IMG/VR virus record: IMGVR_UViG_3300021375_000133
Location: 1-26,933 of that record
Direction: 5' to 3' (one strand)
DNA from: a virus
DNA length: 26,933 nucleotides
The position numbers and the translations under genes are program-made. The first letter of the stretch is position 1. Every line of letters starts with the position of its first letter. The notes below the pieces were generated by a model. The model made no database searches. It worked only from the letters and a program-made list of their open reading frames with translations, and was not told the DNA's origin. Of the stretch, positions 4,951 through 21,571 are shown in pieces.

Positions 4951-5150
4951 GCGGACTCTACATTAGAAAGTTTATTGATCGTGTTGCACAATGTGAAGCA
5001 ACAAGTGCAAACGATTTTGTTTGGAACATGCAGGATGCCAAAAACTTGCATGGTGATATAACAAAATTATTATTAGACCTAAGGCTTTTACAATCTAATC
5101 CTGTAGAAGAAACTCCACAAACAATAGAAGTTGATGGTGGAAATTGGTAG
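4947..5150 (+). CDS. Small conserved phage protein, unknown function
   Basis: This 67-residue, largely helical protein starts in an ATGA overlap with the preceding stop. The N-terminal half (YIRKFIDRVAQCEA, then QDAKNLHGDITKLLLDL) resembles a short helical conserved protein that I associate with marine T4-like phages. No catalytic residues or membrane segment are visible. It probably depends on translational coupling to the upstream gene, since no ribosome binding site is obvious. It ends at a small hairpin-forming region (5150-5205). Confidence 0.75.
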   Translation: MSGLYIRKFIDRVAQCEATSANDFVWNMQDAKNLHGDITKLLLDLRLLQSNPVEETPQTIEVDGGNW

Positions 5151-5206
5151 TTAACTAAGCAGTTAACAGATTATCTACGCAGTTTATGGTAAATAACTGT
5201 GGAGAT
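5150..5206 (+). other. Short intergenic dyad with GTTAAC repeat
   Basis: The GTTAAC palindrome occurs twice (5150-5155 and 5162-5167) with a 6-base gap, able to form a 6-bp hairpin right after the upstream stop. A second, bulged pairing is possible between ACAG-A-TTAT near 5167-5175 and ATAACTGT near 5191-5198. No T-run follows, so this is not a classic terminator. It may be a processing or regulatory hairpin before the gene at 5213. Confidence 0.35.
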
Positions 5207-5212
5207 AATGAA

Positions 5213-5509
5213 ATGAGTAGACCAAAACCAACTATATTAGTAGAAGTCACTGATAAAGCAACATACAAAACAGAGCAAGTACTTGCTAGTGATGGAATAT
5301 GGGCAGTATACTTTAAAGGCTCGCCTATTAACCTAAAAACATCAAACTTGCTTGTACAGTATCCAGGACCAAAGTATAAGAAAGTTAGCTTCTCTAACCC
5401 AGGACATGCCATTAGTTTAGCAAAAAAACTTAATGCACAATTTAAAACCGAAGATTTTAGTGTTGTGTTGCTACACAAGGGTGAGCAAGTGTACCCTAAT
5501 GGAAAATAA
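5213..5509 (+). CDS. Conserved marine T4-like phage protein, unknown function
   Basis: I chose ATG 5213 (98 residues, MSRPKPTILVEV) because GGAG lies about 10 bases upstream; an in-frame ATG at 5186 has no ribosome binding site. The protein is a small mixed alpha/beta fold with a YPGPKYKKVSFSNPGHAISL segment in the middle and a second half that alternates helix and strand. I recall similar proteins of unknown function in T4-like cyanophages. There is no membrane segment. It overlaps the next gene, which starts at 5499, by 11 bases. Confidence 0.78.
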   Translation: MSRPKPTILVEVTDKATYKTEQVLASDGIWAVYFKGSPINLKTSNLLVQYPGPKYKKVSFSNPGHAISLAKKLNAQFKTEDFSVVLLHKGEQVYPNGK

Positions 5510-6137
5510 AACACTAGTTACGTTCGGAGACAGCTGGCCGCAAGGTTCCGAGCTTTTGCCAAACGAGAAGACATTTGGTGAACTAGTTGCAAACCAACTT
5601 GGATGCAAGCAATTTAAAAACTATGCATATCCTGCCAGCAGTATAAACCATCTAGCAGTACAACTAAAACGTTTCCTTCATATGTTATCTCATTCTCATA
5701 TAGCAGATCCTAGCGATTGTATTGCAATATTTTTCCTTACGGACCCTAGTCGAAACATGGTTGGCGATAAAAATGAACTATGGATGTTCCAAACTCCAAA
5801 TGGTGGATTTAGCGGGCCAACACAAGACAAGTCTCTTACAAACATAATCAATACAAACTATTGGAAATATTTTTACAGTGACAAACTTCTTGATGTTACA
5901 AATAACACAACTATTATTACACTACAAACAATGTGTGCTATTCATAAAATAAATGATTACTATGTTACAGGATGGAAATCAGTAGATTTTTGGAAAGAAG
6001 TTGATCAAACAAAAATATATAGTAAAACATGCAAAGATATTGTACAGGATAATAAAGCCAATGGCGGACATCCTAATCAACGCGGACATGAATTAATTGC
6101 TGACGAACTAATTGATTGGATACGCAGTGAGGGATAG
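5499..6137 (+). CDS. SGNH/GDSL hydrolase-like protein, copy 3
   Basis: This is a 212-residue protein from ATG 5499, chosen because the longer frame from 5433 lies inside the upstream gene. GDSWPQG (10-16) is the block I Ser motif. YAYPASSINHL (about 41-51) supplies the block II/III-type Asn. HPNQRGHELIADEL near the C terminus fits block V, with the second His as the catalytic base. It is only distantly related to copies 1 and 2 but has the same overall plan. No signal peptide is present. It interrupts an otherwise conserved run of small phage genes, which suggests later insertion. Confidence 0.72.
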   Translation: MENKTLVTFGDSWPQGSELLPNEKTFGELVANQLGCKQFKNYAYPASSINHLAVQLKRFLHMLSHSHIADPSDCIAIFFLTDPSRNMVGDKNELWMFQTPNGGFSGPTQDKSLTNIINTNYWKYFYSDKLLDVTNNTTIITLQTMCAIHKINDYYVTGWKSVDFWKEVDQTKIYSKTCKDIVQDNKANGGHPNQRGHELIADELIDWIRSEG

Positions 6138-6498
6138 AAAAGAAAAACTTACTAAAACTTTTATAGCACTACATTTTGACGGCTCCACTGAACGTGCTAA
6201 TTTAGACTTCAAAACTGCATTTCATTCTTGGTGGTACAACACACGTGAAAATGGCGGCATGCGATTAACAAGCACAGGATTCAAGATATTAAAAGATCTC
6301 AAGTTTGAATATTGGGATTTTGTTTTACCAGAAAACTTTGCCCGTAAAAACAAACGAATTTTATTAGGCTTAGATCGTAAGTTACACTTTCCATACTACT
6401 ACGGCAGAAAACGTTTGAGCTTTTTTGGTTCACAAGAAGCAATGATGGCCAATCTCACTGGTGATCTAGAACAATGGTTAAACAATAATTTTGGATGA
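6127..6498 (+). CDS. Conserved marine T4-like phage protein, unknown function
   Basis: I prefer GTG 6127 (123 residues); TTG 6112 in the same frame would add five residues, and neither has a clear ribosome binding site. The start lies inside the end of the SGNH copy 3 gene, so coupling is likely. The sequence contains FIALHFDGSTERANLDFKTA and a WWYNTRENGG segment that I recall in T4-like cyanophage proteins of unknown function. It is basic and aromatic-rich, with no membrane helix. It could bind nucleic acid, but no domain shows this. Confidence 0.75.
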   Translation: MRDRKEKLTKTFIALHFDGSTERANLDFKTAFHSWWYNTRENGGMRLTSTGFKILKDLKFEYWDFVLPENFARKNKRILLGLDRKLHFPYYYGRKRLSFFGSQEAMMANLTGDLEQWLNNNFG

Positions 6499-7090
6499 TC
6501 ACCCAGAAGATATAGTGTGGCGTACTGTTGACCCAGATGATATTTGGGTAATGGATAAACTAATCCTTTCAAGAAAATTAGGTTACAACTGCGGACCAGT
6601 GGGGCAAGATGTTACTGTACCTGGTGTGTACATAGTACGTCCTTGTATTAACATCTTAGGATTAGGACTAGGTGCAAGTAAAGTATGGTTGGATAAAGGC
6701 ACTACACATTTGCCCGTTGGATACTTTTGGTGCGAGTGGTTTGCAGGCATACACCTAAGTGTAGACTATCAATGGGGATCACAAAGTTTGTGTGTAGAAG
6801 GAATAAAACCTCCTGATACTCTAACACATTGGAAAGAATGGATACGTAGAGAGAATCAAATAGCATTACCTCTAATGCTACGCAATATTGGTACCAAGTA
6901 TGAATGGTTAAACTGTGAATACATTAATGGTAAACTTATAGAAGTACATTTGAGAAACAACGAAGACTTTGCTAACAATATAAGTCATTTCATTCCTGTA
7001 TGGGAAGGTGAGTCCACAGTACCGCCTCCAGGTTATACATATAGACAGTATCCTGATGTGCATGGTAGAATTGGTGCATTTATAAAATAA
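6491..7090 (+). CDS. Conserved phage protein, unknown function
   Basis: The 200-codon frame (199 residues plus stop) opens with TTG at 6491, eight bases inside the previous gene; the first ATG is at codon 21 (VMDKLILS). I keep TTG because the residues before that ATG (DIVWRTVDPDDIWVMDKL) look like genuine protein. The segments SRKLGYNCGPVG, YIVRPCINILGLGLGA and HLPVGYFWCEWFAGIHLSVDY resemble a marine-phage protein of unknown function; an ATP-grasp-like fold is conceivable but not shown. Four Cys are scattered. It ends immediately before a new promoter at 7091. Confidence 0.75.
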   Translation: MDDHPEDIVWRTVDPDDIWVMDKLILSRKLGYNCGPVGQDVTVPGVYIVRPCINILGLGLGASKVWLDKGTTHLPVGYFWCEWFAGIHLSVDYQWGSQSLCVEGIKPPDTLTHWKEWIRRENQIALPLMLRNIGTKYEWLNCEYINGKLIEVHLRNNEDFANNISHFIPVWEGESTVPPPGYTYRQYPDVHGRIGAFIK

Positions 7091-7119
7091 TTGACGTAAT
7101 GCTTTTTTAATGTTATAAT
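7091..7119 (+). promoter_or_regulatory. Sigma70-type promoter
   Basis: TTGACG (7091-7096), 17 bases, TATAAT (7114-7119). The -35 box directly follows the upstream TAA stop. AAAAAGGA lies about 10 bases before ATG 7140. Confidence 0.85.
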
Positions 7120-7139
7120 AAATTAAAAAGGAACGTAGT

Positions 7140-7823
7140 ATGCATTTACAAACCAAAGATGTGTCGCTTTACACAAAAGTAAGTAGTAAACTTAAAAACG
7201 GCAGGTATTATAGAAACTTTGAAGAAGAACGTGCAGGATTGCAACTTCAACAGTTTACCGTACAAAAAACTGCACAAGAACACAGTGTACAAAATCAAAA
7301 AGAAATACTATGGCGTGCAGAAGCACTTTTTATACCTACAGTATTAATAACACCAAGAACTATACAGTTTTTAGGCAATAACAATGTGATAGCAGATGAA
7401 ATAATGACAGACGCACAGATAAAAGCATTTGATACCAGCGAAAATCATTGGAGTAGAACCACTTGGAGAAGTGAAGTAAGTGACGAAGGAACTGAATGTC
7501 TTGAACTTAATTTAAACTATGAAAATTATTCTGTGCTAACAAGTGAACAAGGATTTTTTCACTATGTAGATGGCAAGTTTACTAGAATTAAAAACAGACA
7601 TACACAGATTGAAATGCTATGGAACTATGGCTTTGCAAGTAAAAGAGGTAGGCCGTTAACAGTGGGAAGAGCTACACACAGTGGTACTAAAACAGAAATA
7701 AATGGATTGGTTAACTGGTTAGGAACACTTCGGAGATTAAACAAAGGCAGTGAAATTCAATTCAAAACACAACAAATTTATAATACATTGAATAGACATT
7801 ACGCCTGGCCAGAGCATTGGTAA
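7140..7823 (+). CDS. Hypothetical protein
   Basis: This 227-residue soluble protein is not recognised. It is basic, with an N-terminal helical portion (about 1-60) and a C-terminal part containing ASKRGRPLTVGRATHSGTKTEINGLVNWLGTLRRL. This Arg/Lys-rich stretch could be a nucleic-acid-binding surface, but I see no defined domain. There is no signal peptide. It forms a single-gene cassette, with a consensus promoter at 7091-7119, a good ribosome binding site (AAAAAGGA), and the next promoter starting four bases after its stop. Confidence 0.75.
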   Translation: MHLQTKDVSLYTKVSSKLKNGRYYRNFEEERAGLQLQQFTVQKTAQEHSVQNQKEILWRAEALFIPTVLITPRTIQFLGNNNVIADEIMTDAQIKAFDTSENHWSRTTWRSEVSDEGTECLELNLNYENYSVLTSEQGFFHYVDGKFTRIKNRHTQIEMLWNYGFASKRGRPLTVGRATHSGTKTEINGLVNWLGTLRRLNKGSEIQFKTQQIYNTLNRHYAWPEHW

Positions 7824-7826
7824 AGG

Positions 7827-7855
7827 TTGACAAATAGAGTTTATTATCGTATACT
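7827..7855 (+). promoter_or_regulatory. Sigma70-type promoter with AGTTAGAAA leader
   Basis: TTGACA (7827-7832), 17 bases, TATACT (7850-7855). The -35 box is part of AAAGGTTGACA, repeated at several other promoters here. An AGTTAGAAA element (7870-7878) lies in the leader, followed by AAAGGA before ATG 7893. Confidence 0.88.
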
Positions 7856-7892
7856 ATAAGTATAGTAACAGTTAGAAACAAAGGAAAGATCT

Positions 7893-8084
7893 ATGGCAAT
7901 AATTATACTAGCACTATTGTTCTCTATAGGAAACAATGAATTTTTTGATACAGTACAAGCACAAAAAGCACAAGGCTATAAATGGTCTGAGCTACAGGAC
8001 TGTAGAGTTGTAACCGAAGGTTTGCCTGCTATTACAATTGATAGTGTTAAAGGCAAAAGGGTTTGTTATAAGTTGATAAAATAA
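7893..8084 (+). CDS. Small protein with hydrophobic N terminus
   Basis: The product has 63 residues. The first 11 (MAIIILALLFS) are strongly hydrophobic and could be a short signal or anchor. The mature part has two Cys (CRVV and VCYK, about residues 36 and 58) that could form a disulfide in the periplasm. It starts after a clear AAAGGAA ribosome binding site in a promoter-led cassette and its TAA overlaps the next ATG by one base. I do not recognise it. An envelope location is likely, but the hydrophobic segment is short. Confidence 0.65.
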   Translation: MAIIILALLFSIGNNEFFDTVQAQKAQGYKWSELQDCRVVTEGLPAITIDSVKGKRVCYKLIK

Positions 8085-8317
8085 TGACTGAATGGTTTGT
8101 TGTAGCATTTTTGACATTTGCACATACTGATCGAGTAGAAATAAAACTCATGCAGGAAAGTTTTAGCAGCCGGCCTGCATGTGTTGCTTATGTGCGGAAC
8201 AATCCAGACATTGTTAACGACATGTTTATACTTGAACCCAATAATAATGGCATGCGGTTTGAGTGCTTAGATGCTGACACAGTAAAGCGGTACAGTATAA
8301 AAAGAAAAGCCATATAA
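8084..8317 (+). CDS. Small hypothetical protein, possibly exported
   Basis: This 77-residue protein follows the previous small gene with a one-base overlap, and the two are probably made together. The N terminus (MTEWFVVAFLTFAHT) is moderately hydrophobic and the rest is soluble. It contains SRPACVAYVRNNPDIVNDMF and a second Cys (FECLD), again a two-Cys pattern as in its partner. A function in the envelope is a guess from this pairing; there is no recognised domain. A 215-base noncoding leader follows. Confidence 0.65.
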   Translation: MTEWFVVAFLTFAHTDRVEIKLMQESFSSRPACVAYVRNNPDIVNDMFILEPNNNGMRFECLDADTVKRYSIKRKAI

Positions 8318-8532
8318 ATTTAACCCCCATCAAATTCAACTATAAATATTCACATCGACAGCGCCAGCAATGACGCGAGCATAAAACGGACGCCTGAGCA
8401 ATATGCTCTTTACTTAACACGAACGCCCAGCTCTATTCTTCTAGTCGAAATCATATAAAAGGTAAAAGTAAGTATTGAAATTAAACCTATTTTGTGTTAA
8501 TATGTAGGTGTAATTTTTAATAGGAATTTGTA
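8318..8532 (+). promoter_or_regulatory. Noncoding leader: late-promoter match, repeats, promoter before tctA
   Basis: This is a gene-free stretch. CTATAAATA (8340-8348) matches the T4-type late promoter. From 8356 to 8437 three imperfect copies of a CGrAC(n)GCC(n)AGC unit occur, with the GCC cores at 8363, 8392 and 8425. TGCTC at 8404-8408 can pair with either GAGCA 8396-8400 or, as ATGCTC 8403-8408, with GAGCAT 8377-8382, giving alternative hairpins. TCGAC (8355-8359) and GTCGA (8444-8448) could close the structure. Near the gene is a sigma70-like promoter, TTGAAA (8475-8480), 17 bases, TAATAT (8498-8503). Confidence 0.55.
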
Positions 8533-9942
8533 ATGATTGAAGATGGCGTTGTTCATATTGTAGGTGGATTTGAATGGATAGACTTTATCCATGTGATGGG
8601 AGGTATTCTTGCAGGATTTTTAGCAGGTTTGATTCCCGGCATTGGCAATACTATAATGTTGTTTATGCTTTATCCTTTCCTTATGGAATCAACTCTTTTT
8701 CAAATGTTAGTTTTCTATCTTGGACTTGCATCAGTATCTCAGTTTAGTGGCAGTGTAATTGCAACTGTATTTGGTATCCCAGGTGAGTCAAGTAGTTTGC
8801 CAGCAGTACGTGAAGGTAAACGACTATTTGAAAGAGGGCAAGGCAACTTTGCTATAAGTGGAGCTGCCATTGGATCAGTGTTTGGAAGTTTCATAAGTGT
8901 GTGTGTTATTTTTGCAGTGCTTCCGTTTGTAATACATGGACTTATGAACTTCTACAGTGCTGAAATACAGTTTGGAATACTTTGGATTGCAACCTGTAGT
9001 GTGGTATTCTTACTAGGCAAAAGTTGGAAAGAAAATGCAGTTGTATTTGCACTTGGAGCCGCACTAGGACTAGTAGGACAACATAATGTTCCATTCTTTA
9101 TATTCGGAGAAGGCTATCTGCCTTATGATATGTTCCCAAGCCTATATGAAGGCTTACCTCTGTTTCCAGTTGTTGTAGCACTCTACGTATTTCCAACACT
9201 GTTAAACACAATTGAACAATTCAAAGACTTCAAGTATGAAAACGACCGAGACTACTTTGATGATAGCTCACCATTGTTGCACTTTAAACATTGGTGGCAA
9301 AACAAGTGGGCCAGTATACGTGGTAGTATATTTGGTGCTATTGTTGGCTTGGTGCCACATATTGGTACAGGTATAGCCAGTAACTTCAGTTATGCAGTTG
9401 AAAAGAAACGTGCCATTAAGAATGGTAGTTATCGCGAAGATGGACACATGAAGAGTCTAATCAGTGCTGAAACTGCCAACAACAGTTGTACACTAGTATT
9501 GTTGTTGCCATTAATGCTGATTGGTATTCCAATGTCGCCAAGTGAAACAATTCTTATATCCCTAATAGAAATGAACAGCTATGTGATCAATTGGAGAATC
9601 AGCATTGAACAAAACTTTTTTGAAAGACTAACCTATTGGTTTGTTTTTATCAACATGGTTGCAGTGGTACTGTGTTGGCCTGCAGTGAAATATGTCAATG
9701 TACTGAAAAAACTTAACATGGTTCATATGATCTATGCTACTGGTGTTATACTGGTTGGACTTGTGCTATACACAGGGTTTCAGCAATATGACATGTGGTA
9801 TCATTTTACTGTTATGATTATACTTTTACCTTTAGGATATTTTTTACGTAGAACAGAAACATTAATACTTTTAATTGCATTTATATTGCAAGACAAATTG
9901 TTGATGAGTTCTAATGTTCTATATAATTTGCATTTTGGTTAA
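8533..9942 (+). CDS. tctA: Tripartite tricarboxylate transporter, large membrane subunit (TctA family)
   Basis: This 469-residue multi-pass membrane protein matches TctA, the large permease of secondary tripartite tricarboxylate transporters. The family's duplicated signature is visible: GLIPGIGNT near residues 32-40 and its counterpart GLVPHIGTGIAS in the second half. Also present are FGIPGESSSLPAV in place of the usual GxPGxxxxA loop, SAETANNS (family PETANN) and MLIGIPMSPSET. The length is slightly below the usual 500. It sits behind its own promoter and is followed by a TctC-type binding protein, but no TctB small subunit is found in the window. The substrate is not predictable from the sequence; carboxylates are typical for the family. 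Confidence 0.9.
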   Translation: MIEDGVVHIVGGFEWIDFIHVMGGILAGFLAGLIPGIGNTIMLFMLYPFLMESTLFQMLVFYLGLASVSQFSGSVIATVFGIPGESSSLPAVREGKRLFERGQGNFAISGAAIGSVFGSFISVCVIFAVLPFVIHGLMNFYSAEIQFGILWIATCSVVFLLGKSWKENAVVFALGAALGLVGQHNVPFFIFGEGYLPYDMFPSLYEGLPLFPVVVALYVFPTLLNTIEQFKDFKYENDRDYFDDSSPLLHFKHWWQNKWASIRGSIFGAIVGLVPHIGTGIASNFSYAVEKKRAIKNGSYREDGHMKSLISAETANNSCTLVLLLPLMLIGIPMSPSETILISLIEMNSYVINWRISIEQNFFERLTYWFVFINMVAVVLCWPAVKYVNVLKKLNMVHMIYATGVILVGLVLYTGFQQYDMWYHFTVMIILLPLGYFLRRTETLILLIAFILQDKLLMSSNVLYNLHFG

Positions 9943-9953
9943 TATTAACCAAA
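9934..9953. promoter_or_regulatory. Perfect 20-bp palindrome, possible operator
   Basis: TTTGGTTAAT followed by ATTAACCAAA forms a perfect 20-base inverted repeat without a gap. It spans the tctA stop codon (9940-9942) and ends seven bases before the -35 box of the tctC promoter. The position suits a dimeric repressor or activator site. As RNA it would be a poor hairpin because there is no loop. Confidence 0.55.
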
Positions 9954-9960
9954 TGGACGG

Positions 9961-9989
9961 TTGACAACAAACCTAAACTGTTGTATAAC
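9961..9989 (+). promoter_or_regulatory. Sigma70-type promoter of tctC
   Basis: TTGACA (9961-9966), 17 bases, TATAAC (9984-9989), with the extended GGTTGACA form. It gives tctC a transcript separate from tctA. The leader ends in CGGAGA about nine bases before ATG 10025. Confidence 0.87.
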
Positions 9990-10024
9990 ATTAACTTAAC
10001 TTAGGTACATTACGGAGAATATAT

Positions 10025-10990
10025 ATGACCTTACTACAAAGACTAAGTGCAACAATTATAGCACTAACAATAACAGTTACAGGCTTGACTGGAACTGCAA
10101 TGGCAGACAAGAAGATACTAGACGTTATTGTTGCATCTTCTAATACAGGTAACAACTGGAAACAGGGTGTTATGTTACAAAAGGCTCTTACTGAAAGAGG
10201 CTATGACAGTAAATTAGTACATACTGCTAACTGTCATAAAAACAAAAAATACATTGCGTCAACAGACCGTCCAGGATTTTACTTTAAATCTGGATCATCA
10301 TGGATCAGTGATGTAGTTAGAAAGAAGTGCTTTATTGCACCAGAAGTTACTAAGGACGTAAGTTATGTAACTCCTTTCTTTTACAGATCAAATGCAATGT
10401 GTGTACGTAAGTCAGACAACATTGGTTCAAATTTAAAAGATATCATGGCATGGATCAAAGCAAAAGATCGTGTTACAATTGGTACTTTTAATAACTTACC
10501 AGATGATTTCTCAGACTTAGGTAAGCAGTTTGGAAACAAGTGGAAGAAAGTTGCATACAACGGTTCTTCAAATACACTTAAAGGTTTCTTAGCAGGCGAT
10601 ACAGACTTAATGTATTTAGGTTATACTGCAAGAGAAATTAACACGCCAGACCTACATTGTTTTGCTACAACAGGTGGTGTAAACGGTACTGCAAAATTTG
10701 CTGATTTGTTTCCAAATTGGGGCCTATCAAGTTTAGTTGAATTTCCAATCGTTTTTGGAATCAAACTAGATGATGCACAGAAAGCAGATACTAAAGCAGT
10801 AATGGCAGATATGATGTCAAATGATCCTGCACTAAAGAAGTACTACGGTACTGCATTTATTCCAACTGCTGCTGAGTTAGAAAAAAGAGGACTTGGACTT
10901 GCAGACTGGTGGCAAGATGCTGCCGATTGGATGCCAGGTGGTGTTAAAGCTGATACAGTAAACAACTGGAAAGCTGGTAAACTTCAATAG
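10025..10990 (+). CDS. tctC: Tripartite tricarboxylate transporter substrate-binding protein (TctC-like)
   Basis: The 321-residue protein begins with a clear Sec signal peptide: basic start, hydrophobic core to about residue 23, and likely cleavage after AMA (27). The mature part resembles a TctC/BugT-type periplasmic binding protein of about 290 residues, with an early strand (LDVIVASSNTGNNW), a central IGTFNNLPDDF region and KGFLAGDTDLMYLG, where the family has a ligand-site segment. The match is weaker than that of TctA, but the gene pairing supports it. It would capture a carboxylate-type solute in the periplasm for TctA. Its own promoter and strong terminator allow the higher expression usual for binding proteins. 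Confidence 0.78.
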   Translation: MTLLQRLSATIIALTITVTGLTGTAMADKKILDVIVASSNTGNNWKQGVMLQKALTERGYDSKLVHTANCHKNKKYIASTDRPGFYFKSGSSWISDVVRKKCFIAPEVTKDVSYVTPFFYRSNAMCVRKSDNIGSNLKDIMAWIKAKDRVTIGTFNNLPDDFSDLGKQFGNKWKKVAYNGSSNTLKGFLAGDTDLMYLGYTAREINTPDLHCFATTGGVNGTAKFADLFPNWGLSSLVEFPIVFGIKLDDAQKADTKAVMADMMSNDPALKKYYGTAFIPTAAELEKRGLGLADWWQDAADWMPGGVKADTVNNWKAGKLQ

Positions 10991-11008
10991 AGTTTACAAC
11001 TAAACTTT

Positions 11009-11044
11009 ATAGTGTGACGACTTATTTCGTCACACTATTTCTGC
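11009..11044 (+). terminator. Strong hairpin terminator after tctC
   Basis: A perfect 12-bp stem (11009-11020 with 11027-11038) has a 6-base loop and is followed by a short T-rich tail (TTTCTG). It lies 19 bases after the tctC stop. The short T-run makes it a slightly imperfect intrinsic terminator; it may also protect the tctC mRNA 3' end. Confidence 0.85.
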
Positions 11045-11060
11045 GTCTTAAGGACCAAAC

Positions 11061-12404
11061 GTGTATAGAGATAAACTAGAAGAATTAGTTAGTACAGGCG
11101 ATAGCCAAGCAAGGAAGATGAACTATCACTTTTATTGGCAAACACCTGATGGCAAAAGATTAGGCAATGTGTTCCTAGCAAAGTGGTACGAAAAAGAGTT
11201 TGATTGCTGGTTACCTTTTGTAACTGCACCAGCACATATGGACGAGTTCAGAGCTACACTTGCAGACAAAACTCTTGACATGGATTACAACTACAGTTTG
11301 GATTTTATAAAAAGGCTTAAAAAAGAATACCAACATGTTGCCTTACTATACAGTGGCGGATATGACAGTCAAAGAATTTTGTTAGATTTTATTGAGAACA
11401 ATATTCGCATAGATGAGACTGTTATGCATTTTTTTACTGAAACTGATGACAACATGAATGAAGAGTATAGAGAAAATGCATTTCCTAGTCTTTACAAATA
11501 TCGTGATTGGATAGATAAGCAAACTTTTTTATATCAACATGAAGACGAATTACTAAAACATTTCTCAGATGAATATGCAATATTCAAACGCCCACAATGT
11601 GGTACTATAATTGAGCCAATGAGCTCGTTACAAATTGAAAATTTTTACAATGGAGCAACGCCATATGATTATGGTGTGCCTGCAAATTTAGATAAAAAAT
11701 TTGATATGGACCCATTGGGTTGCTTTATCATTGGCAAAGACAAACCGCAATTGGTCTATTACAAAAATCGTTGGTACGTAACATTTCTTGACAGTGCAAT
11801 GAACGATAGAGGTGGCTTGTTGAATACAATTTACTTTTGGGCTCATCCAGGAAATGTAAAAACGTTAATTAAAGAAAGCAGACTGTATCGGTCTTATATA
11901 CTGAATAACAAAAATTTTGACATTACAAATACCTTATCCTTTTTTAAATTTTATGATCAAGACGACCTAAACCATGTAATTTCTCGCCCTGAAATATTTA
12001 ATGCGGATAAAAAATTAGGAAAAAATGCAAAGTACCCAATGGAAAAAGGCAATTTTTTAGTAGCTGATCGATGGGATATAGTTAGTAAATATGCACGTTG
12101 TATGGAAAAGTTTTTTGAAATATTTCCTGAATGTCGCACAGGCTTTGATCCTTTAGTAAGCCAAGGCAAGTTTGCTTGGTTTATAGATATAGATAACTTA
12201 GAAATATATAGCCAACAAGAACTTATTCCGAACGGTTTTGAAGACGTAAGCACTGCTAAACATCAAGGTTTAGACTATTCAGAAGTAGAATACAAAGGTT
12301 CTAAAACAAAAATAAATCGTGTTGGGGATAGACATATAAGAGAAATAAACAAATTAAGTGATAAAAAACTTGCAAACAAACTTATAAAAATATATAATAC
12401 ATAG
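11061..12404 (+). CDS. PP-loop ATP pyrophosphatase, amide- or amidino-forming type
   Basis: This 447-residue protein starts at GTG 11061 with AAGGA about eight bases upstream. Following a strand, SGGYDS (98-103) forms the N-type PP-loop that adenylates a substrate and releases pyrophosphate. This motif is shared by asparagine synthase, NAD synthetase, QueC and WbpG-like sugar-modifying enzymes. There is no N-terminal Cys2 glutaminase domain, so nitrogen would come from ammonia or a partner. The C-terminal two-thirds are not assigned. It is the first gene of the metabolic island after the terminator. A role in modifying a sugar, nucleotide or amino acid is inferred; the exact reaction is unknown. 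Confidence 0.75.
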   Translation: MYRDKLEELVSTGDSQARKMNYHFYWQTPDGKRLGNVFLAKWYEKEFDCWLPFVTAPAHMDEFRATLADKTLDMDYNYSLDFIKRLKKEYQHVALLYSGGYDSQRILLDFIENNIRIDETVMHFFTETDDNMNEEYRENAFPSLYKYRDWIDKQTFLYQHEDELLKHFSDEYAIFKRPQCGTIIEPMSSLQIENFYNGATPYDYGVPANLDKKFDMDPLGCFIIGKDKPQLVYYKNRWYVTFLDSAMNDRGGLLNTIYFWAHPGNVKTLIKESRLYRSYILNNKNFDITNTLSFFKFYDQDDLNHVISRPEIFNADKKLGKNAKYPMEKGNFLVADRWDIVSKYARCMEKFFEIFPECRTGFDPLVSQGKFAWFIDIDNLEIYSQQELIPNGFEDVSTAKHQGLDYSEVEYKGSKTKINRVGDRHIREINKLSDKKLANKLIKIYNT

Positions 12405-12413
12405 GAGCTAAAC

Positions 12414-12989
12414 ATGGACAAAATAGGACACTTAGATATTGATTGGCAAGCATTCAATACTAGGATCGACAAAATAGATGGAGTGGTAAAAAAGCCAACA
12501 GAATACAACTGGCCTCTAAAACAAGAAACATACGACAACAACTACAAAGTAAATGAACATCATTATGATAAAGCAACTTGCATTTACACAGAATACGTAA
12601 GCGATGACTTTGTTGATATGTTTCCAAAAGATTTTTGGCCAACAGTCGGTATGGATGGTCGTGTTATAATTAAAGTACTTGAACACGAGCCAGGAGTTGT
12701 AACACAACCTCATTTGGATGGATATCATATTACAAAAGAAAAATTTGATCTTGCTGAGGATGGACCAGTAAAAAGATTGTGGATACCATGCACAGACTAT
12801 AAGTTTGGACATATCCTTTGTGTTGGTGATGATTTTATTATGACAGATTATAAAGCAGGTGATGTGTTTGAGATACCAGGTGACATATTGCACAGTGCTG
12901 GTAACATCGGAGTTGAAACACGCAGAATAATCACAGTAACTGGCGAAGCACTAGACCGTAAAGGCTTTAGAGGAGTTGAAGTTTGCTAA
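12414..12989 (+). CDS. 2OG-Fe(II) oxygenase-like protein, tandem copy 1
   Basis: The 191-residue protein fits a double-stranded beta-helix dioxygenase: PHLD gives the metal ligands H100 and D102, ILHS gives H160, and the 2-oxoglutarate-binding Arg would be R170 or R171 (VETRR). RLWIPCTDYKFGH and DYKAGDVFEIP are the core strands. It starts at an ATG after GGAGC. It shares the LDIDW start and the whole core with the next two genes, so the three are a tandem triplication. It could hydroxylate an amino acid, nucleotide or glycan precursor made by the neighbouring enzymes. A cupin without this activity is the alternative. Confidence 0.75.
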   Translation: MDKIGHLDIDWQAFNTRIDKIDGVVKKPTEYNWPLKQETYDNNYKVNEHHYDKATCIYTEYVSDDFVDMFPKDFWPTVGMDGRVIIKVLEHEPGVVTQPHLDGYHITKEKFDLAEDGPVKRLWIPCTDYKFGHILCVGDDFIMTDYKAGDVFEIPGDILHSAGNIGVETRRIITVTGEALDRKGFRGVEVC

Positions 12990-13540
12990 AACAAGATCGA
13001 TTAGATATTGATTGGCATGCATTTAACAAACAACTGGACAACAGAGATAATGTAGAAGTCAGCAGAGGTGCTTTGTTAGAAAATGTCTACGACAAAGAAG
13101 GTTATGAACAGATACCTGATGAGCTACAAGCGATTCTTAACCAACTTAATGCACAAAAAATTATGTATGAGTCAGACACATTTGTCCCACTACTGCCCAA
13201 TGGCTTCTTAGAACGTAACCGCATAAGCACAACAAATGTTTTAATTAAAATACTTGAACATCCGCCAGGAACAAACACATGGCCTCACATGGACACATAT
13301 AATAGTGCCAAACGGAAGTTTGGATTGGCTAAAGATGCTCGAATAAAACGCCTTTGGATTCCATGCATGGACTATGAGTTTGGTCATGTACTTTGTGTTG
13401 AGAGACAAGTTGTGATTGATTATAAAGCCGGAGACGTTTTTGAATTTCCGCAAAACATAATGCATAGTGCATTTAACATAGGAATAAAGACACGCAGAGT
13501 CATGACTGTTACTGGAGAAGAAGTTGCTGAAGCCGCATAG
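12983..13540 (+). CDS. 2OG-Fe(II) oxygenase-like protein, tandem copy 2
   Basis: This 185-residue paralogue of the preceding gene starts at TTG 12983, with AGAGGAG about eight bases upstream, and overlaps it by seven bases. The metal and cosubstrate residues are kept: H102 and D104 (PHMD), H161 (MHSA) and R171/R172 (KTRR). The N-terminal half, after RLDIDWHAFN, differs most from copy 1, so substrate choice may have diverged while the core remained. The low-efficiency TTG start may set the ratio of the three proteins. The function is inferred from fold motifs only. Confidence 0.74.
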   Translation: MLKQDRLDIDWHAFNKQLDNRDNVEVSRGALLENVYDKEGYEQIPDELQAILNQLNAQKIMYESDTFVPLLPNGFLERNRISTTNVLIKILEHPPGTNTWPHMDTYNSAKRKFGLAKDARIKRLWIPCMDYEFGHVLCVERQVVIDYKAGDVFEFPQNIMHSAFNIGIKTRRVMTVTGEEVAEAA

Positions 13541-14060
13541 TAAACTAGATATCGATTGGAAATGGTTTAATGATAGATTGGACCGTGAAGATGGTTGTGT
13601 ACGTAAGCCGGCTCCGCACATTACACTTAGACAGATGATGGCCGATGGTGAAAAATACTACAATACAGACAACTGTGCCCATCATTGTTATACCAGCGAT
13701 ACCTTTCATACATGGTTACCAGATGGCTTTCTAGCATCAGAAGGATACACCGGAAAAACACTGATTAGAGTAATTGAACTGCCACCTGCAAGTTTTACTG
13801 AACCGCATGTAGACGCCTATACACAGTCACGTAAAAAATATAGATGGGTAAACAGAGACATAAAAAGGCTTTGGATACCCTGTGGTAACTATAAAATGGG
13901 TCATGCACTTTTTATGGGTGATGATCAAGTTGTAACTAATTACAGTGCAGGCGATGTATTTGACATTACACCTTGGCAGAAAATACTACACAGTGGCGTG
14001 AATGCAGGTGTAGAGATAAGACGTACAATGACAATAACAGGAACAGTAGATGGCAGCTAA
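13524..14060 (+). CDS. 2OG-Fe(II) oxygenase-like protein, tandem copy 3
   Basis: This third 178-residue paralogue starts at TTG 13524, 17 bases inside copy 2, with GGAGAAG upstream. The ligands are again H95 and D97 (PHVD) and H156 (ILHS), with R166/R167 as the likely 2OG-binding Arg. A W-containing insert (DITPWQKILHS) precedes the distal His. Preservation of all key residues in three copies argues that each is active. It overlaps the next small basic gene by 11 bases. Confidence 0.74.
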   Translation: MLKPHSKLDIDWKWFNDRLDREDGCVRKPAPHITLRQMMADGEKYYNTDNCAHHCYTSDTFHTWLPDGFLASEGYTGKTLIRVIELPPASFTEPHVDAYTQSRKKYRWVNRDIKRLWIPCGNYKMGHALFMGDDQVVTNYSAGDVFDITPWQKILHSGVNAGVEIRRTMTITGTVDGS

Positions 14061-15107: not shown

Positions 15108-16616
15108 ATGTGTGGTATCCTATTAGTTAAAAGCAATCAAGAACTACCAGTAGAACAGCATCTTCGAGCATTAAGCACTCTTAAAAGTAGAGGTCCTGAT
15201 AGAACACGTTATCAGTATGAAAACGGTATCTTTATTGCACAAGTAGTATTACATATTACAGGTACAGATGATTACTACAAACAAACACACACAAACTTCT
15301 TAGCATACAACGGCGAGATATACAACTACAAAGAACTAGGCAACTATTCAAACGATATAGAATTTGTAGATAAATGTGTAAATCGCAATGCACGTGGCTT
15401 AGCACGTGGATGGGGTCCTTGGGCATGGGCATGGACTGACGGTGTAACTGTGCGTTATGCCGCTGACCCACAAGGTGAGAAAACACTGTTCCAATATAAA
15501 GATGACGATATTCTTATTGTGTGTTCAGAAGTAGCACCTATACTAGAATATATTACACCAGCAAAGGTCAAGGGCAGTTATGCCACACGCCATTGGACCA
15601 TGCTAGAACAAACACCATATGTGGGTATAACAAGAGTGATACCAGGGTGGGAATATACAAACGGTACAGTAAGTCAACCCATTGACATGCTTTGGAATTG
15701 GATCAAACCAGTTGAATGTACCTATCAAGAAGCACAAGAACAGTTTGCCAGCATATGGAAGCAAACACTTAAAACAATGACACCCAAATGTGACTATGCA
15801 CTTACATACAGTTGTGGACTTGATTCAAGCATAATACTGAGCCACTTGGATGCACCAGAATTATATGCAACCAACATGCAGGGCAAAGATCCTATTGTTG
15901 ATCACATACGTGATTTTTTATCTGATGAACAAATGCAACGTCTTCACCATTTGTCAATTGATGCAGAGCAGTGGGCTGAACTGTTTACACAAGTGATTGA
16001 ACGTACACGAATGCCTGTGCAAAGTTGGAGTTTTGTTGGACAATGGGCAATAGCAAGTGCATGTGATCAACGTGTACTGTTTACAGGTGCGGGTGCTGAT
16101 GAACTGTTTGGTGGATATGATATATATCAAAAACTAAACTACAATAACAACAGCCCTTACAGTGTGGACTCACCGTTGTGGAGATGGTGTATGGACAGTT
16201 ACGATCAGCATGCTGGACAAGCAACTTTACTTGCTGACTACTGGCATCAAATAAGTGGGTGTGACATAAGAGGTGTTGATGCGATAGCAGGTGCTCATGG
16301 TATCGAAGCACGCAATCCATTTCTTGCAAAGCCTGTGATGCAGTTTGCACTTAACTTACCATTTGAATACAAAGTAGGATCAGTGCCAAAGCCTCTAATA
16401 AGAGATTTATTTTTAGAACAATGGACTGTAAAGCATATATGGCCAAAGCAAGGTTTCAGCGGACATTGCAACGATAGTCTGCCCTATTTAGATGTAACAG
16501 TTAGTGACACAGATAGAAATACACAATGGCGTGATGCAGTTATTGAAAGTTTTTTCACTCCCAAAGATTCCCGTTATGAGGCTCCCAAAAAGGTGTCCAG
16601 TCTACGGCATTATTAA
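15108..16616 (+). CDS. asnB: Asparagine synthase, glutamine-hydrolysing type
   Basis: The 502-residue protein has both AsnB domains. The N-terminal Ntn glutaminase has MCGI with catalytic Cys2, RGPD (28-31) and YNGEIYN (67-73). The C-terminal synthase has the PP-loop SCGLDSS (235-241), GAGADELFGGY (327-337) and HGIEARNPFL. Ammonia from glutamine would amidate an adenylated carboxylate, aspartate or, as in related enzymes, a sugar acid or peptide. The PP-loop reads SCGLDS, with Cys where the family has Gly. The length is close to that of E. coli AsnB (554). The 3' end overlaps the convergent ParB-like gene by 62 bases. Confidence 0.9.
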   Translation: MCGILLVKSNQELPVEQHLRALSTLKSRGPDRTRYQYENGIFIAQVVLHITGTDDYYKQTHTNFLAYNGEIYNYKELGNYSNDIEFVDKCVNRNARGLARGWGPWAWAWTDGVTVRYAADPQGEKTLFQYKDDDILIVCSEVAPILEYITPAKVKGSYATRHWTMLEQTPYVGITRVIPGWEYTNGTVSQPIDMLWNWIKPVECTYQEAQEQFASIWKQTLKTMTPKCDYALTYSCGLDSSIILSHLDAPELYATNMQGKDPIVDHIRDFLSDEQMQRLHHLSIDAEQWAELFTQVIERTRMPVQSWSFVGQWAIASACDQRVLFTGAGADELFGGYDIYQKLNYNNNSPYSVDSPLWRWCMDSYDQHAGQATLLADYWHQISGCDIRGVDAIAGAHGIEARNPFLAKPVMQFALNLPFEYKVGSVPKPLIRDLFLEQWTVKHIWPKQGFSGHCNDSLPYLDVTVSDTDRNTQWRDAVIESFFTPKDSRYEAPKKVSSLRHY

Positions 16617-18898: not shown

Positions 18899-19940
18899 AA
18901 TACACGGACCTACATATAGATACAATGGTGAAAAACTAACCAAGCCTGAAATAATGTTTGTCAACGATCACCATTATGATGAAGAAGCACATTGCTTTCA
19001 TATTGAAAAACTTTTAGAAAATAGTGTGTGCGATCCAAAATTGCATACTCTGGTTTTTGATCACGTGCTACACGATGATGCACTTAACAAATACAACTGT
19101 ATATGTTTACCAATGTTTCTAGCAGTCGAAGCAGAAGAATTTAGAAAACAAGAAATTACACTTGATTGGAACAAAAAGACACATTTGTTTAATTTTTCAA
19201 TTAACAAGCCCCGTATACATCGACAATTACTTTTGAAAGAAATTAAACGGTTAGAATTAAAAAACTATACATATAGTTTGCCATGGAAAACAAATAATAT
19301 CAATGACATTCCAGTTACAGACTATAAATTTGGTCCCGAGGTATGTCTGGAACAAGGTATTAGAAACGGAAATTTTAAAAATGGCGAAACATACAAGCAT
19401 CTGTTGAAAGAATCAGTATATGAGCCAAGTTGTATTAGTATAATTACAGAACCTCTATACTATGAACGTGAGGCTTTTGCCACAGAAAAAAGTTACATGG
19501 CTATGTTTGGTGGCACATTTCCAATTTGGTTTGGAGGATGGAAAATACCTCAATCTATGCGGGATCTCGGATTTGATGTGTTTGATGATATCATTGACCA
19601 TAGTTACGAAACATTGTCAGATCCATACGAACGTTGCGTAAATTCACTTTTATATAATCAACATCTATTTAAAGATATAGAAAACTTAAAAAACTTGCTA
19701 TTGAAAAATACAAGTAGATTGTTGCACAATGTAGAACTGATAAAAGACAATGTGTTTTTAAAAGAATGTTTACGGCAAGCAGATTTACATCAAGGACCAG
19801 TCAGAACAGAGTTATTAAAATTTATTCCAAGTTTCCGTAACGGCACATTTACAGTATTCATGGAAGACTTTAATAATCATAAAGTATTAGGATCAGAAGC
19901 ATTTGACACTAGATATGACAAAAGCATGTTGAAGCAATGA
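18891..19940 (+). CDS. Phage protein with GT10-like C-terminal motif, copy 2
   Basis: This protein has 349 residues, starting at ATG 18891 with CAGGAG about nine bases upstream. The central block IITEPLYYEREAFATEKSYMAMF, IWFGGWKIPQSMRDLGFDVFDDIIDHSYETLSDPYERC aligns with copy 1: both have E-x-x-Y, an xTEK/xSEK site, a GFDV segment and D-x-x-Y-x-T. The FxTEK motif is a hallmark of the GT10-like donor site. The N-terminal 170 residues are different from copy 1 and not assigned. Stop and next start overlap (ATGA) with the amidinotransferase gene. It is probably an inner-face glycosyltransferase. Confidence 0.62.
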   Translation: MIEIHGPTYRYNGEKLTKPEIMFVNDHHYDEEAHCFHIEKLLENSVCDPKLHTLVFDHVLHDDALNKYNCICLPMFLAVEAEEFRKQEITLDWNKKTHLFNFSINKPRIHRQLLLKEIKRLELKNYTYSLPWKTNNINDIPVTDYKFGPEVCLEQGIRNGNFKNGETYKHLLKESVYEPSCISIITEPLYYEREAFATEKSYMAMFGGTFPIWFGGWKIPQSMRDLGFDVFDDIIDHSYETLSDPYERCVNSLLYNQHLFKDIENLKNLLLKNTSRLLHNVELIKDNVFLKECLRQADLHQGPVRTELLKFIPSFRNGTFTVFMEDFNNHKVLGSEAFDTRYDKSMLKQ

Positions 19941-20977
19941 GTGTATATTACCACTGGGACAAACTAGAAGAATGTGTAGTAGGCAAAGGCTATCCGCCTG
20001 AATACTATTCATGGATACAAGATGTTCCTACACGTAGGTTGTTTGAACAACTGGCAATAGAAACAGAAGAAGATTTACAAAAACTCTGTAGACTTTTAGC
20101 ACAGTTTGGAGTTGATGTTGTACGTCCAACCATACCAGACTATGAGCAGTGCATGGTGAACGGTATATTGGTACCACCGCCGGTGCAACCACGTGATCAT
20201 TTTATACAGATTAGAGATAAACTTTGGGTATGCACTACACCAAATGCAAACTTTGCACGCAATGCATTTGCTAATCAAGATATTCTTACATGGTCACAGT
20301 TTCAAGCACGTGATCAAGCAAAGCATGATATAAAACTAAAGTTCTATCAAGACATATTTCGTGGACGTGATATTCAAGAAACAGATCTTAGTTATATTAG
20401 CGGATGTTTTGTAAGCAGGTTAGGAGACAACTTATACTTTGCAACACAGACCATCTATGATAACTGGAATCAAATACAACGTGAAGTAGATACATTATTT
20501 ACGGATACCCACAATACTATTGTTGATGCCCAAGGACACGGAGATGCAGTGTATTGTCCAGTAACTGAAGGCTTAATAATCAGTATAGCCAATGAAGATT
20601 ATAAAGATACTTTTCCTGATTGGGAAGTAGTGCATTTAGCAGAAAGCGATTATGCAAAACATAATAAGTTCCAAAGCAGTATGAAACTTAATGCAGGTAA
20701 ATGGTATATACCAGGCTTTGATAAAAATCCAAAGATACTTGAAACTGTTGATCAGTACTTTAATGAATGGGTTGGCGAAGCTCATGAGACAGTGTTCGGT
20801 GTAAATATTTTAGTTATTAATCCAACTAATGTAGTAATTGCTGAATATAACAAACGTACAGTAGACGCACTTGAACGATATGGTATTACTGCACATATCT
20901 CTCCATTTAGACACAAATACTTTTGGGATGCCGGTATACACTGTCTTACTAACGATCTGAGGCGAACATGCGAATAA
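19937..20977 (+). CDS. Glycine amidinotransferase-like enzyme
   Basis: The 346-residue protein matches the amidinotransferase family (pentein fold), which moves an amidino group from arginine to an amine. It opens with WDKLEECVVGKGYPP, a typical first strand. Candidate catalytic residues are D87 (QPRDHF), H201 in GHGD and C336 in AGIHCLTNDLRR, the last a close match to the Cys region of glycine amidinotransferases. The length is slightly shorter than the vertebrate enzyme but usual for bacterial and phage forms. An arginine deiminase relative is the alternative. Its place beside PP-loop, asparagine synthase and glycosyltransferase-like genes suggests making an amidino- or amide-decorated product. 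It overlaps the next small gene. Confidence 0.85.
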   Translation: MSVYYHWDKLEECVVGKGYPPEYYSWIQDVPTRRLFEQLAIETEEDLQKLCRLLAQFGVDVVRPTIPDYEQCMVNGILVPPPVQPRDHFIQIRDKLWVCTTPNANFARNAFANQDILTWSQFQARDQAKHDIKLKFYQDIFRGRDIQETDLSYISGCFVSRLGDNLYFATQTIYDNWNQIQREVDTLFTDTHNTIVDAQGHGDAVYCPVTEGLIISIANEDYKDTFPDWEVVHLAESDYAKHNKFQSSMKLNAGKWYIPGFDKNPKILETVDQYFNEWVGEAHETVFGVNILVINPTNVVIAEYNKRTVDALERYGITAHISPFRHKYFWDAGIHCLTNDLRRTCE

Positions 20978-21333: not shown

Positions 21334-21410
21334 GGACTGTTAGCTCAGCTGGATAGAGCATCTGACTACGAATCAGAAGGTCGGGAGTTCGAATCTCTCA
21401 CAGTTCACCA
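21334..21410 (+). tRNA. tRNA-Arg(ACG)
   Basis: A complete 77-base cloverleaf. The acceptor stem is GGACTGT with ACAGTTC (one G-U pair). The anticodon loop CTACGAA between TCTGA and TCAGA gives anticodon ACG. The T loop TTCGAAT has a GGGAG/CTCTC stem, and CCA is encoded. The gene lies just after the 27-codon gene, probably on its transcript. It reads CGN arginine codons if A34 is deaminated to inosine. Confidence 0.95.
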
Positions 21411-21416
21411 ATTTAT

Positions 21417-21490
21417 AGAGGACAAGTGTTACGGTAGCACGAGTGGCTCCAACCCACTAAGCCAGGGTTCGACTCCTTGGTCCTCTGCCA
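21417..21490 (+). tRNA. tRNA-Trp(CCA)
   Basis: A 74-base cloverleaf: acceptor AGAGGAC/GTCCTCT, D stem GTGT/GCAC, anticodon stem AGTGG/CCACT around CTCCAAC (anticodon CCA), T stem CAGGG/CCTTG with loop TTCGACT, discriminator G and encoded CCA. The G discriminator is as expected for bacterial tRNA-Trp. Confidence 0.92.
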
Positions 21491-21495
21491 AACAT

Positions 21496-21571
<76 letters not shown>

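Follow-up and report, generated by a model that had tools for sequence, protein, structure and literature searches.

Known TctA-Type Transporters

The closest described systems to the phage locus considered here are the bacterial TctCBA transporters (TC 2.A.80), such as Salmonella TctCBA and the systems of the Bordetella Bug proteins, with which it shares adjoining genes for a TctA-family protein and a solute-binding protein (SBP) of the TctC/Bug fold. The phage version differs, however, in having no TctB, in a TctA only about 21–30% identical to the cellular ones and in an SBP beyond the reach of the Pfam TctC family, and also in forming an all-viral clade, in having a PP-loop partner and in carrying a promoter-like site for each gene. 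As encoded, the phage pair is of the TctA/TctC type but is not tripartite. The stand-alone archaeal TctA proteins (arCOG04469/DUF112) likewise do without TctB, however, most of them also lack an SBP (PMC5898192), whereas the phage pair retains one. These archaeal proteins offer a precedent for action without TctB, an older suggestion (PMC5898192; reviewed in PMC5812351). The TRAP transporters (DctPQM) are also SBP-dependent secondary transporters and have two membrane subunits, one large and one small, but they are not homologous in sequence and their small subunit, DctQ, was found to be essential (PMC5812351), whereas the phage pair has no small subunit; the TRAP case therefore counts against a TctB-independent reading of the phage genes.

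Earlier papers had already mentioned tctA on marine viral contigs. A tctA domain was reported from SUP05 single-cell viral contigs (PMC4164917), and a marine viral scaffold was described as having tricarboxylate transport genes close to norB/nirK (PMC8115048). The relevant portions of these two papers give a domain match or a passing mention, and do not describe pairing with an SBP, a survey for TctB, a second type of TctA or a cassette with a PP-loop gene. Within the portions of the literature covered by our search, no description was found of a TctB-free pair in two types or of a PP-loop cassette.

The Phage Locus and Its Relatives

The window, meaning the whole stretch of DNA analysed, is a virus record of 26,933 bp and a fragment of a jumbo phage. 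Most of it aligns, largely collinearly, with a 328,292-bp relative (IMGVR_UViG_3300021964_000012), the main aligned blocks being 66–92% identical at the DNA level. This relative is probably a complete genome, since it has 105-bp identical ends and the join between them is spanned by another contig (106 kb). It encodes the same TctA/SBP pair (96% and 92% identical), and its putative terminase, over the N-terminal part, is nearest to that of Pseudomonas phage PA5oct-like jumbo phages (55%). Elsewhere the window encodes a phage NAD synthase (NadE; 803–1564), also present in the 328-kb and a 316-kb relative, an asparagine-synthase-like (AsnB-like) protein with a glutamine amidotransferase domain (15108–16616), an amidinotransferase-like protein assigned by inspection (19937–20977), of which the 328-kb relative has several, and a tRNA-Arg, -Trp and -Thr cluster (21334–21571) in which 80 bp over the tRNA-Thr gene are identical in the 328-kb relative.

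The tctA gene (8533–9942, plus strand), here termed TctA1, encodes 469 residues with about 12–13 hydrophobic segments, and the earlier note's assignment of it to the TctA family is borne out by PF01970, which matches residues 20–442 with 212 bits (cut-off 28.9; E = 1.4e-62). The glycine-rich TTT motif, G-x3-G-x3-G-x2-P-G-x-G, was sought in both repeats. It is intact in the first (GGILAGFLAGLIPGIG) and altered in the second (RGSIFGAIVGLVPHIG), where PG has become PH (PHIG). The full second-repeat motif occurs in 0/14 TctA1 proteins vs. 29/30 of the other viral TctA type, and the altered form might signify a changed function. However, few proteins of the cellular sample have the strict form either (9/79), and for that reason the motif does not decide TTT membership.

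The adjoining gene (10025–10990, plus strand) encodes a protein of 321 residues, SBP1, whose N-terminus is signal-peptide-like by inspection, ending AMA|DKK. A single-sequence search found no family match for it in Pfam (PF03401 included), NCBIfam or PHROGs, so the label TctC cannot be demonstrated in this way. A profile of the viral SBP1 family nevertheless matches SBP-like ORFs beside tctA at 30/79 cellular loci (best E 1.6e-8), and in Foldseek an AlphaFold2 model (mean pLDDT 71) has TctC/Bug structures as its leading matches (E 1e-11). In VIA-align, TctC-family structures hold ranks 1–11 (Z 13.8–16.1), with the next fold at Z 12.1; the structures matched include TphC, Bug27, TBP, BugD, MatC and other members of the family. 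Family profile and predicted fold thus agree with the proposal that a tctC homologue adjoins tctA, albeit without a PF03401 match, and on these two grounds we identify SBP1 as a TctC/Bug-type binding protein.

It had also been proposed that each gene has its own promoter and that a strong hairpin follows tctC. A promoter-like site precedes the SBP1 gene (TTGACA-17-TATAAC, 9961–9989, plus strand), with a -35 block invariant in three homologues and an 11-bp block, GGTTGACAACA, kept in two. The site upstream of tctA (TTGAAA-17-TAATAT, 8475–8503, plus strand) is only weakly kept in homologues, and promoter-like matches in the region number 12 vs. 11.5 in shuffled sequence. Since this count shows no excess, support for the promoters is comparative only, and the proposal holds better for the SBP1 gene than for tctA. 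The hairpin (11011–11036, plus strand) has a 10-bp stem and a 6-nt loop, and lies in a 76-nt stretch with a folding z of -5.6. In the 328-kb relative a G-C pair of the stem is replaced by A-T, a compensatory change, and so the claim of a hairpin stands. No proper T-run was found behind the stem, and the element is possibly a processing site or a weak terminator.

A PP-Loop Partner and a Second TctA Type

While the description of the locus as a TctA/SBP pair without TctB was correct, the earlier note overlooked two features, namely a PP-loop partner gene and a second TctA/SBP pair in the related 328-kb phage. The partner (11061–12404, plus strand) encodes a PP-loop ATP-pyrophosphatase-like protein of 447 residues (SGGYDS). 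A PP-loop gene lies within 3.5 kb of TctA at 12/12 TctA1 loci, 10 of which supplied the profile used for the count, vs. 0/114 loci of the second type and 0/79 cellular loci (Fisher p 5e-17, with the TctA1 loci being related to each other). SBP1 is detected by profile in 10 of the 12. The order of the genes varies, with the PP-loop gene before or after the others, the genomic settings differ, some adjoining tail-fibre-like genes, and beyond nearest relatives the cassette proteins are just 13–46% identical; for these reasons recent hitch-hiking is an unlikely explanation for the joint retention of the three genes. The SGGxDS phosphate-binding loop is invariant in the PP-loop family, which matches N-type ATP pyrophosphatases only weakly (E 0.015), and a structural model too low in confidence to be relied on (pLDDT 53) gives weak LarE/NadE/CysD fold matches (E over 0.05). 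Between phages, dN/dS is 0.039 for TctA1, 0.094 for SBP1 and 0.116 for the PP-loop gene, the TctA1 value being the lowest but one among the genes measured. All three genes are under purifying selection, which is strong on the whole of TctA.

Three tandem paralogous 2OG-oxygenase-like ORFs, assigned by inspection, follow the cassette in the window (12414–14060, plus strand). At another TctA1 locus (L237), KipI and KipA (PxpB/C, 5-oxoprolinase subunits B and C) are encoded between the SBP1 and PP-loop genes (10803–12357), and a further TctA1 locus adds two AsnB-like genes. A half-length Na/phosphate-cotransporter-like protein of 155 residues was noted by inspection on two other phage contigs (L016, 13488–13955; L254, 4102–4569).

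The second TctA of the 328-kb genome (162614–164053), termed TctA2, is 23% identical to the first and has its own binding protein, SBP2. This type is common on marine viral contigs, with 52 loci recovered from one query, and SBP2 lies within 3.5 kb of TctA2 at 109/114 loci; a combined query returned 344 viral stretches that code for a TctA relative of some kind. Both types also occur in the 316-kb relative (G042) and in an 81-kb one (G023). In a tree that also included 79 cellular sequences, TctA1 forms a single all-viral clade with full support, although long branches, a quick method and a cellular sample chosen by motif leave the depth of the clade unsure. Profile comparison of SBP1 with SBP2 gave only 44% probability of homology over 33 columns. 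Genes of the TctA2-SBP2 type are also seen on cellular MAG contigs (L088, L090). On L090, from marine bacterium B5-7, they lie with a phage-like sulfotransferase-like gene (4980–8139), possibly through gene transfer, and a contig binned as Candidatus Pelagibacter that resembles a phage contig carries a viral TctA2-SBP2 locus (L099, 401–6729).

Absence of TctB

The small subunit was sought by family search and by a scan for transmembrane (TM) segments, and the earlier observation that the window lacks tctB was upheld by both. No PF07331 (TctB) match was obtained in the 328-kb genome or in any of 50 viral TctA records (3.1 Mb in total), while the same search scored above cut-off in 38/40 bacterial genomes, which had been picked for carrying TctA. 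The possibility had been raised of a tctB gene elsewhere in the phage genome, but the 328-kb relative, which looks complete, and 49 further viral records yielded none. Conservation among TctB sequences is poor, TctB being the least conserved subunit (PMC5812351), and the profile could therefore miss a distant one, yet the TM scan also found no small four-TM ORF in the window or the 328-kb genome. Independently of the profile, a TctB-like neighbour (an adjacent ORF of 110–300 residues with at least three hydrophobic segments) accompanies tctA at 71/79 cellular loci vs. 0/43 viral loci. Many of the viral records are fragments, and absence is weak evidence for any one record but not across all of them. 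A DUF6552 small membrane protein was considered as a substitute for TctB and rejected; it lies behind SBP2 at many but not all TctA2 loci, as behind the second TctA/SBP pair of L018 (5780–6016), and none was seen at TctA1 loci.

Function of the Phage Pair

We think it fairly probable that these genes encode a viral two-component TTT-type importer that lacks the small subunit, is under selection and is coupled to an ATP-using enzyme. In the infected cell, SBP1 would be exported to the periplasm, where it would capture a small, probably carboxylate-bearing solute and hand it over to TctA1, which we infer to be an ion-coupled symporter operating without the four-TM TctB. The imported compound may then be adenylated or amidated by the co-conserved PP-loop ATP-pyrophosphatase-like enzyme. 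The KipI/KipA, AsnB-like and NadE neighbours give a hint that such a compound may undergo amide or acyl chemistry dependent on ATP. A carboxylate is suggested as the substrate by family membership only. Bug27 and Bug69 bind quinolinate (PMC11452294). Import of an NAD precursor is a weak candidate, with NadE absent from 7 other TctA1 contigs (mostly fragments) and from TctA2-only records, as is import of 5-oxoproline, with PxpA absent from 20/20 records tested and KipI/KipA near the L237 locus only.

The earlier note had left it open whether the phage pair works alone or uses host TctB. Working without TctB is favoured because every viral TctA locus, in two separate types, is without it. The phage pair could instead be incomplete alone and assemble a hybrid transporter with host TctB, and both the frequency of TctB among TctA-carrying bacterial genomes and the usual presence of a TctB-like neighbour beside bacterial tctA speak for such borrowing. 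However, with neither viral type having TctB in any record, a suitable host TctB would be needed everywhere, this being the least conserved of the subunits, and the pairing of DctP with its membrane partner is specific in TRAP systems (PMC5812351); we regard a hybrid as unlikely. A little less likely again is that TctA1 and SBP1 are not a nutrient importer but serve changes to the cell surface or host signalling, for example the supply or export of precursors for phage-directed surface modification. Many 2OG-oxygenase-like, sulfotransferase-like, methyltransferase, DegT and AsnB-like genes lie in the neighbourhoods, the SBP fold is common to sensor domains such as those of BvgS and EvgS, and the TctA1 motifs are altered, all of which would fit such a role. 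However, the pairing of a TctA with its own dedicated SBP of the TctC fold is how an uptake system is organised, and selection is strong across the whole of TctA. Host contamination, the first of which the earlier note had warned, a decayed passenger gene or misassembly might be suspected because TctA is mainly a bacterial family, but the intact ORFs, the dN/dS of 0.04, the synteny with the 328-kb phage, the hundreds of viral relatives and the all-viral clade exclude contamination and make the whole group of explanations highly improbable.

The expectation that close relatives of these genes would reveal the host was not borne out. The best cellular relatives of the window TctA reach only about 21–30% identity and, with no close cellular relative, the genes do not point to a host. 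Nor were TctA1, SBP1 or the PP-loop protein found in the deposited phages of the collection searched, where the few TctA matches were all below 30% identity.

Implications for Marine Phages

More tentatively than for the TctB-free importer itself, we suggest that a widespread virus family may carry complete, TctB-independent two-component TTT importers, in some genomes two separate ones, and that one of these may be hard-wired to a virus-specific ATP-pyrophosphatase-like enzyme as a viral pathway that takes up and activates a specific metabolite. The invariant PP-loop partner is then a handle on the substrate. If the importer reading is correct, SBP-dependent secondary transporters that lack the small subunit would represent naturally minimal TTT systems with a bearing on the role of TctB, and their spread over large marine phages, some with two importers, would mean that infection at sea is limited by how much of a specific metabolite is taken up.
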